Assembly: GCA_030431255.1 (NCBI GenBank)
Contig: JAUIJL010000028.1
Coordinates: 1-64,000, forward strand
Length of the DNA: 64,000 nt
Origin: Thermoanaerobaculia bacterium
Lineage (GTDB): Bacteria > Acidobacteriota > Thermoanaerobaculia > Multivoradales > J023
Reading direction: 5' to 3'
Below are positions 1,708 through 19,707 of this stretch, in pieces. The position numbers and the translations under genes are program-made. Each line of letters opens with the position of its first letter. Positions within the stretch are counted from its first letter, which is position 1. Under the pieces are notes generated by a model. The model saw only the letters and a program-made list of their open reading frames with translations, was not told the origin of the DNA and searched no databases.

Positions 1708-1764
1708 CGCATATCCCAGCGGCTCGAGGCGCACGGCGCGGCGCCGGCGCTCAGCCGCGTCGCG
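1708..1764. repeat. attC-like hairpin A between cassette-like units
   Basis: This 57-nt imperfect inverted repeat starts CGCATATC (1708-1715). It has nested arms (GCGGCT/AGCCGC, then GAG-G-CGC/GCGCTC with an unpaired G) around a CGGCGCGGCGCCGGCG core. The outer arm is completed by GATATGCG (1764-1771), which begins the next unit. It matches hairpin B (2876-2931) almost base for base up to the G at its 3' end, after which the two copies diverge. A folded site with bulged bases and a junction after G is how integron attC sites behave. However, the core sequences are not RYYYAAC/GTTRRRY, so the call is structural. Confidence 0.6.
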
Positions 1765-1814
1765 ATATGCGAATTGGTGATTCGGGAACATGAATCTGGG
1801 ATACCGAGGTGGAG

Positions 1815-2875: not shown

Positions 2876-2931
2876 CGCATATCCCAGCGGCTCGAACGCA
2901 CGGCGCGGCGCCGGCGTTCAGCCGCGAAGCG
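2876..2931. repeat. attC-like hairpin B after the TIR-like gene
   Basis: The second copy of hairpin A lacks one G and has a few substitutions, but keeps the CGCATATC outer arm, the AGCGGCT/AGCCGCG arms and the GC core. It starts three bases after the TGA of the TIR-like gene. Similarity to hairpin A stops at the G at 2931, where this copy continues TTGGCCG instead of ATATGCG. The CGCATATC arm is the exact reverse complement of the GATATGCG that begins the preceding unit (1764). That is the relation expected between the two ends of an excisable cassette. Confidence 0.6.
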
Positions 2932-2952
2932 TTGGCCGAACCATAAACTGAT

Positions 2953-5725: not shown

Positions 5726-5930
5726 GGGCCACCTCCGTCCATGGGCACAGCTGGAGGTGAGCCCGCGTCTGGGCTAGCCGCGACGGGCGAAGCATTTGAA
5801 TGATGGATTTTGGGATGGTGTCGAGCATCTTCGTCTTCTCCTCAGCAGGTTGTGTTTGGAAGGCACAGTGCCTTTAATAGAGGTAGGACGAAGAATTGGC
5901 TCCAAACTCTGCGACTCAGAGATATTGCTC

Positions 5931-6163
5931 AAGTGAATCGATGGTACAAGGTCCGCAGAGGGCTTCCTGAACATCAACCTGGCACCACCACTGGCTGAAG
6001 TGAATCGGTAGTACAAGGTCCGCAGAGGGCCTTCCTGAACATCAACCCTTCCTGAACATCAACCTGGCACCACCACTCCAGGCACCACCACTCCACCACT
6101 CCACCACTCCACCACTCAACCACTCAGAGGGCTTCCTGAACATCAACCTGGCACCACCACTCA
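5931..6163. repeat. cluster of REP-like units upstream of the RAYT gene
   Basis: Four whole or partial copies of CTGAACATCAACCTGGCACC occur here (near 5967, 6033, 6050 and 6135). A direct repeat of about 50 bp (5931-5980 and 5998-6047, starting AAGTGAATCG) carries two of them, and a short CCACCACT minisatellite lies at 6072-6125. On the other strand the core is GGTGCCAGGTTGATGTTCAG. The cluster sits at the 5' side of the transposase, where RAYT genes usually carry their REPs. The rest of 5726-6285 shows no gene. Confidence 0.75.
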
Positions 6164-18532: not shown

Positions 18533-18585
18533 GCTAACTTCGAGACTTGGGTTTTATTTGTATGTCGTCAAATTTAAGGTTAGGC
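18533..18585. repeat. attC-like hairpin with canonical GTTAGGC core
   Basis: GCTAAC (18533-18538) pairs with GTTAG of GTTAGGC (18579-18585), and ATTTG/CAAAT form an inner stem, giving a 53-nt imperfect hairpin. GTTAGGC fits the integron R' consensus GTTRRRY exactly. The junction would fall after the G at 18579, so the unit starting TTAGGC continues into the GNAT gene. Confidence 0.45.
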
Positions 18586-18603
18586 CGCACGGAATACGCC
18601 GGA

Positions 18604-19029
18604 GTGCTTCGCCAAGCCCGAAGAGAAGACATCCCTGCCATGCATGTCGTTCGGCTGGCAGTGCAAGAGAACGCGCTGCAGTCGGCGGCAGTCAATGAGG
18701 CCAGCTACGTGCCCGCCATCGAAGAAACCGGCCGTGGCTGGATAATCGAGGTCAGTGGTGCGGTCGTCGCGTTTGCGGTCGGGAACCGAGTCACGGGCAA
18801 TGTCTGGGCGCTCTTTGTTCATCCGGAGCACGAAGGTAGAGGCCACGGCCGGAAGCTGCACGACGCCATGCTGTCCTGGCTGTTTGCCCAGGGAGTAGAA
18901 CGGGCTTGGCTCAGTACCGACCCAGGAACTCGGGCGCAGCGCTTCTATGAGCGCGCGGGTTGGCAGTACAAGGGTGTTTCGCCGAGCGGAGAGGCCTCCT
19001 ATGAATACCCGTCCTTGGGTGCGGCCTAA
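18604..19029 (+). CDS. GNAT-family N-acetyltransferase, probable integron cassette cargo
   Basis: The 141-residue protein is a single GNAT domain. It begins RQARREDIPAMHVVRLAVQEN, typical of the family. Strand beta-4 and motif A read GNVWALFVHPEHEGRGHGRKLHDAML, with the acetyl-CoA loop (Q/R)-x-x-G-x-(G/A) as E-G-R-G-H-G. The end (LSTDPGTRAQRFYERAGW) matches motif B. The acceptor cannot be told. GTG 18604 is proposed because the fold starts there; ATG 18562 or TTG 18547 would add residues that read through the attC-like site. The gene is bracketed by GTTAGGC (18579) and GCCTAAC (19024), which are exact reverse complements, as the two ends of an integron cassette should be. Confidence 0.75.
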   Translation: MLRQARREDIPAMHVVRLAVQENALQSAAVNEASYVPAIEETGRGWIIEVSGAVVAFAVGNRVTGNVWALFVHPEHEGRGHGRKLHDAMLSWLFAQGVERAWLSTDPGTRAQRFYERAGWQYKGVSPSGEASYEYPSLGAA

Positions 19030-19080
19030 CTTCTCGTTCCAGCCGACCGCCTTCGTGAAGAGGAGGCGGGATCGTTGCTT
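19024..19080. repeat. attC-like site at the 3' end of the GNAT gene
   Basis: GCCTAAC overlaps the TAA stop of the GNAT gene and fits the R'' consensus RYYYAAC. It is followed by TTCTCGTTCCAGCCGACC and a CCGCC/GGCGG inner stem, a layout very common in chromosomal attC sites. A matching R' would be expected near GTTGCTT (19074-19080), which fits only in part, so the 3' core seems degenerate. Confidence 0.45.
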
Positions 19081-19158
19081 TCTGCGATCAGCCCATCGGA
19101 ACTATCGCTTTCCGGCCTCAGAACCACTAGCGATCTACTCGATGAATGAGGTCAAATC

Positions 19159-19707
19159 GTGAATTTTGATACCTATGTCTCTAGACTGCAGAGACTCTAC
19201 TCTGACCTGAACCTTGAGCTTGAGCTCGCAGCGCCGGCGGGAGACCGGGAGCTCGAGAAGCTGCAAGCCGTAGTTGAGATCGAGATCCCGGACGACATGA
19301 TTCAGTGTTGGAAGCGCTCGAACGGGAGTGAATCCTATCCTTTCTTCGGACATCCCCATCTGGTCATACCCTATGAATTCTTGACGGTGAATCAGGCCAT
19401 CAGCGCTTATCAGGGGCTTGAGAGCCGGGCTGTCAACTACGAAGCGCTAGGGCTGGAGCGAGCTTCAGATCCTCGAATCAAGGATGGCTGGTTTCACAGG
19501 GGCTGGTTGCCTTTCGCCGAATTCGTCGGCGGCGACATCCTTATCTGTGACTTGGCACCTGAAAGCGGAAAGAGAGGGCAAGTCATAGGATTCAGTCACG
19601 ATCCTGACGACATAGTGTTCATCGCTGCGAGCTTGCCGGAGCTCTTGGATCTATCACTTGCAGCGCTGGAGGAAGAGCAGGACCAGTTCTTTGAGGACTA
19701 TCTGTGA
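19159..19707 (+). CDS. SMI1/KNR4-family (SUKH) protein
   Basis: The 182-residue protein fits the SUKH superfamily. It has an N-terminal helix, then PAGDRELEKLQAVVEIEIPDDMIQCWKRSNGSE (pattern 'e.ei..lE..lg..lP.d....y...NG'). A W-L-P-F-A-E block follows, then a strand DDIVFIAASLPELLDLSL. SUKH proteins serve as immunity proteins against polymorphic toxins in bacteria; no cognate toxin is visible here, so it may be an orphan immunity gene. The GTG start at 19159 has GAGG seven bases upstream. It follows the GNAT cassette and is similarly lower in GC, suggesting that it is a second cassette-type insertion. Confidence 0.75.
   Translation: MNFDTYVSRLQRLYSDLNLELELAAPAGDRELEKLQAVVEIEIPDDMIQCWKRSNGSESYPFFGHPHLVIPYEFLTVNQAISAYQGLESRAVNYEALGLERASDPRIKDGWFHRGWLPFAEFVGGDILICDLAPESGKRGQVIGFSHDPDDIVFIAASLPELLDLSLAALEEEQDQFFEDYL

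Follow-up and report, generated by a model that had tools for sequence, protein, structure and literature searches.

A GNAT acetyltransferase gene that ends in half an attC site: a probable relic of an integron cassette

The stretch analyzed here, called the window throughout, comprises the first 64,000 nucleotides (nt) of contig JAUIJL010000028.1 (G000:C16:1-64000), part of the 10.2 Mb draft genome of a Thermoanaerobaculia bacterium. On its plus strand, at 18604-19029, lies a gene for a GNAT family N-acetyltransferase of 141 amino acids (aa), recognized by homology (Pfam Acetyltransf_1, E 2.1e-15), with a GTG start and a TAA stop codon at 19027-19029. The stop codon is overlapped by the 7-mer GCCTAAC (19024-19030, plus strand), the R'' core of an attC site, and the exact reverse complement of this 7-mer, GTTAGGC (18579-18585, plus strand), precedes the gene as the probable R' core of a left (5') cassette end. 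A first-pass annotation of the DNA had placed both 7-mers correctly and had read the arrangement as the layout of a chromosomal integron cassette. We argue that the gene is most probably a former cassette that was immobilized by the loss of half of its attC site.

The decisive evidence, absent from the first-pass annotation, is a match to the L'' part of attC in the 17 nt past GCCTAAC. Together with the core these make up an R''-spacer-L'' sequence (GCCTAACTTCTCGTTCCAGCCGAC, 19024-19047, plus strand) corresponding to the 5' arm of an attC site. Because an earlier pattern, CTAACNNNNCGTTCMAGCCGAC, had been partly shaped by the window site, a second set of sites was used that had been chosen only by their outer cores (GCCTAACN{35,63}CGTTAGGC). 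This set holds 44 folding attC-like sites, just one of which fits CTAACNNNNCGTTCMAGCCGAC, and may include a few false attC, whose only effect would be a weaker profile. Against the 24-nt profile built on it the arm scores 26.7 bits, with the next best place in the 64 kb, on either strand, at 10.5 bits. The 17 nt past the core score 13.1 bits versus a leave-one-out median of 12.0 bits for the training set, a value reached at 584 of 1e8 random positions (5.8e-6 per position).

It could be argued that this is an ordinary chromosomal GNAT gene, acquired horizontally, whose resemblance to an attC arm at the 3' end and whose upstream GTTAGGC are both accidental. The 7-mers do occur at the expected frequency (three occurrences of GTTAGGC or GCCTAAC on the two strands of the window versus 3.5 expected), so that the core pair alone would not carry the claim, and pairing of cores (RYYYAAC...GTTRRRY, 45-180 nt, complementary at 6/7 positions or more) gives no complete attC in the window. 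An accident of this kind is nevertheless unlikely, as the L'' part reaches the median score of real sites (~2e-5 when multiplied by the three occurrences of the 7-mer), every other place in the window scores some 16 bits less than the full arm, and the arm is located at the stop codon of a gene, on its coding strand, which is how cassettes are arranged. Judged from its sequence, the site contains an attC R''-L'' 5' arm that is not explained by chance.

Within the 10.2 Mb genome the exact match to CTAACNNNNCGTTCMAGCCGAC is unique to the window site; in a search for a second copy of the arm, other pattern matches were at the level of the reversed control and the DNA segment matched only itself. 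Across the class, the arm pattern was found only at the window site and in a complete attC of a four-attC array beside an integron integrase (IntI) gene (G022). In IMG/VR, CTAACNNNNCGTTCMAGCCGAC occurs at 30 loci, and nearly all matches continue into a full attC, six such sites being in one array. Two IMG/VR loci (L094 and L098) also carry a half attC, whose 5' arm is like that of L086 and L109 before the sequences diverge inside the loop; half sites thus occur beyond the window.

The substrate of IntI is the bottom strand of attC in its folded form; once a circular cassette has been inserted, its left junction carries TTRRRY and its right junction attC. As the 5' end of a circular cassette completes its own attC, a single cassette should have a left core that matches R'' exactly. 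The GTTAGGC at 18579 is a 7/7 complement of R'' and ends 18 nt ahead of the GTG at 18604. Two alternative in-frame starts lie upstream (ATG 18562 and TTG 18547), and a start at ATG 18562 would carry the open reading frame (ORF) through GTTAGGC. Homologues begin at residue 15 or 16 of this longer ORF, which corresponds to GTG 18604; the left core is therefore most likely outside the gene, 18 nt ahead of it. An exact GTTAGGC appeared within the 101 nt upstream of the start in ~1.2% of Markov resamples. We also considered an attC ahead of the gene that ends in this GTTAGGC and rejected it, because there is no L' arm upstream of 18579: the 3' arm profile gives 10.3 bits there, nearly all from the 7-mer, versus a median of 24.6 bits for real sites. 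The first-pass annotation had described secondary structures on both sides of the cassette. The hairpin before the left core did not hold up (18533-18590 folds at only -1.8 kcal/mol, z = +0.72), whereas the stem-loop after GCCTAAC is present as CCGCC(N14)GGCGG at 19047-19070, where 19047-19051 pairs with 19066-19070. This stem-loop may be what is left of the variable attC loop, or unrelated sequence may already begin here; the L' and R' expected after it are absent.

The distribution of the gene shows it to be accessory, not core. Homologues at E<=1e-20 occur in 7 of 396 genomes of the phylum, the host included, and no orthologue is present in the genus and family genomes tested, which speaks against a core gene at a fixed locus, one of the outcomes that the first-pass annotation had named as fatal to its claim. 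Across six genomes of the family no nucleotide match to the region is listed. One homologue lies at G328:C17:166363 (JAGQSC010000036.1, 'Acidobacteria bacterium'). The closest (82% aa and 79% nt identity) belongs to an uncultured bacterium (G149, contig CALLZN010000320.1), where the strand of the GNAT gene also carries three attC sites (44.3, 28.2 and 19.8 bits) at 4.1, 3.3 and 2.7 kb upstream of it. This array contains cassette-like ORFs with a G+C content below that of its flanks, and the G149 genome carries an IntI of its own (433 bits). The G149 gene is the last before a gene on the opposite strand, and its stop codon sits in TTCTAAC. Similarity between the two copies fades at the start codon and at R''; in between, the differences fall mainly at third codon positions (18/15/55) with a dN/dS of ~0.1-0.2, which indicates that the protein is under constraint. 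Furthermore, a 61% homologue in a metagenome-assembled genome of Burkholderiales lies ~2.2 kb before two attC sites. The search named in the first-pass annotation, for the same gene flanked by other attC sites, thus gave homologues near such sites, of which that of G149 is not directly bracketed by them. That most GNAT homologues lie outside integrons would suit an accidental resemblance, whereas the position of the best one near an array speaks against it. The gene was not found in viral contigs, and plasmids hold only homologues below ~41% identity. A 5' leader apparently shared with the 82% homologue (GTTAGGCCGCA / GTTCGGTCGCA) was considered and not used, because in the homologue this stretch may be the end of the preceding gene after a frameshift, and because the 40 nt upstream match at only 15-16 of 40 positions.

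Several results weigh against a cassette origin. The first concerns the 3' arm of the site (L'-R'), for which the best score of a 22-nt profile across 19036-19400 is -2.7 bits versus a training median of 24.6. The bottom strand of 19022-19160 does not adopt an attC fold and folds no better than its shuffles (z -0.91, DNA parameters), with two complete attC sites folded as controls at z -4.7 and -4.9. A structure-aware covariance model, R2 (15 pairs, based on 35 independent attC sites), gives no match at 19024 with filters off, and recovers the four attC sites of the G022 locus and two in the Burkholderiales locus. No second attC was found in the neighbourhood of the gene, and the left core by itself is weak evidence. 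There is no attC directly on either side of the G149 homologue and none at the other homologues (L060-L064, L253-L258). The host genome encodes an IntI at G000:C51:27385-28335 (TIGR02249, 415 bits), no convincing attC was found on its 30 kb contig, and this integrase need not have been the agent of the insertion. A less structured model, R1, scores 22.7 bits (E 0.003) at the site, from the 5' arm only; as proof we rejected this match, since the R1 training sites were picked with a pattern that the window site itself matches.

With no 3' arm, no fold and no R2 match, the site at 19024 is half an attC and very probably not a working one. The lack of a match to a full attC covariance model was the other outcome that the first-pass annotation had named as refuting its claim; a functional site is not upheld, and the claim shrinks from a cassette to the relic of a cassette: integron ancestry is supported, and the complete layout was too strong a reading for a site whose L'-R' half is absent in a window devoid of a complete canonical attC. 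One might still suppose a functional cassette whose complete attC, with its long loop, spans 134 nt and has a degenerate 3' arm that ends in GTCAAAT (19151-19157), just before the start of the next gene. GTCAAAT is one base off the R' consensus GTTRRRY, a fold with RNA parameters pairs it weakly with R'', and real attC sites of 91-127 nt exist. With DNA parameters, however, the ends are unpaired and the fold equals that of shuffles, GTC in place of GTT alters the cleavage site, and neither the L' profile nor the covariance model finds a match, so that a site still at work is very unlikely.

We favor integron ancestry because an attC 5' arm lies at the stop codon, a matching core precedes the start and the closest homologue sits beside an attC array. 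The cassette would have begun with its own 5' core (TTAGGC after G18579), followed by the GNAT gene, and ended in an attC with R'' over the stop codon. An integron integrase would have put it into the chromosome, either at a secondary site or in an array that no longer exists. Later, L' and R', which form the 3' half of attC, would have been deleted, beyond ~19051-19070. Without L'-R' the bottom strand would be unable to form the paired hairpin that IntI recognizes, so IntI should no longer excise the gene, which would be locked in place. Still coding, it would now be an ordinary chromosomal gene with a SUKH gene after it. What we observe directly are the gene and its rarity, a left core that matches, the 5' arm, the lack of a 3' arm, the host IntI and a homologue near an attC array, whereas the insertion, deletion and immobility belong to the proposed history. 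The site has the make-up of a truncated-attC relic, with only one of the two halves retained at the 3' end of a gene. It is extremely improbable that an integron integrase still uses the lone R''-L'' half for recombination or capture, so that such halves seed new chromosomal insertions, for instance of the SUKH gene.

The neighbouring gene (19159-19707, plus strand) encodes an SMI1/KNR4 (SUKH-1) protein (PF09346, E 1.3e-16) and starts 129 nt past the GNAT stop codon. By arm profile and covariance model, no recognizable attC bounds it; as a second cassette it was ruled out, having neither cores nor arms. Fusions that arise by partial loss of a first attC are known (PMC4670013), and the shared strand and short distance would fit a GNAT gene with a truncated attC that once moved jointly with the SUKH gene by means of an attC after the latter. 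We consider such a fused cassette quite unlikely, since past the SUKH stop codon (19707) there is no attC arm or covariance match of note (the sole listed match has 7.4 bits, E 8.1) and SUKH homologues are absent from viral contigs and only distant in plasmids. Complete integrons require intI beside attC sites, and clusters of attC sites lacking integrases (CALINs) at least two attC sites within ~4 kb; the window is neither, the host IntI being on another contig (C51) and no complete canonical attC being present. The C51 IntI is solitary and, by reading of the sequence, apparently lies between a comM-like gene and an IS91-like transposase. Rfam matched nothing in the window.

Other attC-like sequences occur in this genome. 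Three hairpins (window 1709-1770, window 2877-2940 and G000:C37:2209-2224, L267) share a constant 5' part, GCATATCCCAGCGGCTCGA, and their 3' ends change right after ...CGCG (GATATGCG, GTTGGCCG and GTTCTGCG), as cassette junctions do. At 14.1 bits (E 0.24), the hairpin at 1709-1770 is the top covariance-model match in the window. The GATATGC end, which lacks GTT, would be an unusual core; the first-pass annotation was right that the core class at 0.5-4.5 kb differs from that at the GNAT gene (GCATATC versus GCCTAAC). On contig C50, four attC-like hairpins of 34-40 bits (190260, 197536, 204821 and 211707; L240, L241) have the core GCCGAAG/CTTCGGC instead of GYYYAAC; each lies 1-2 kb from an ORF for an IntI-related tyrosine recombinase of 384-385 aa, in four repeats ~7 kb apart. 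On the minus strand of C39 a single attC-like site (75429-75501, 24.9 bits, L238) lies between two same-strand ORFs, of which the downstream one is apparently TIR-like by eye, and looks like a lone cassette. A non-coding segment of the window (5927-6161) holds nested short direct repeats with 37-nt units such as CTTCCTGAACATCAACCTGGCACCACCACT.

Cassettes that are single or degraded are already known, as are CALINs (PMC9024848); the probable relic in the window is a fossil of a well-known process of gene capture, not something new, and it leaves the understanding of integrons unchanged. Genes of this type escape surveys that demand one or two complete attC sites, and a profile for half sites would reveal the number of chromosomal genes that started out as cassettes and later became fixed. 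The finding also links one acetyltransferase family with the movement of integron material between phyla.

Among known systems, the fused blaGES-1/aacA4 cassette lost part of an attC and excision with it (PMC4670013). Like the window it has a gene followed by a partial attC, with independent excision predicted to be lost, whereas the GNAT gene stands alone in a chromosome, with neither attC nor integrase as neighbours and no attC after the next gene. The truncated attC of aadA1 is reported to be still usable (PMC4670013). The window shares with CALINs and lone attC cassettes in the IntegronFinder sense a cassette-derived gene far from any integrase, although the CALIN default is at least two attC sites (PMC9024848) and the window has one half site. 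The aadA-type and phage-borne attC sites (CTAACNNNNCGTTCMAGCCGAC sites in IMG/VR; phage CALINs, PMC9892861) nearly always continue to L' and GTTRRRY, unlike the window site, but the sequence class of their 5' arm is identical to that of the arm at the GNAT stop codon.
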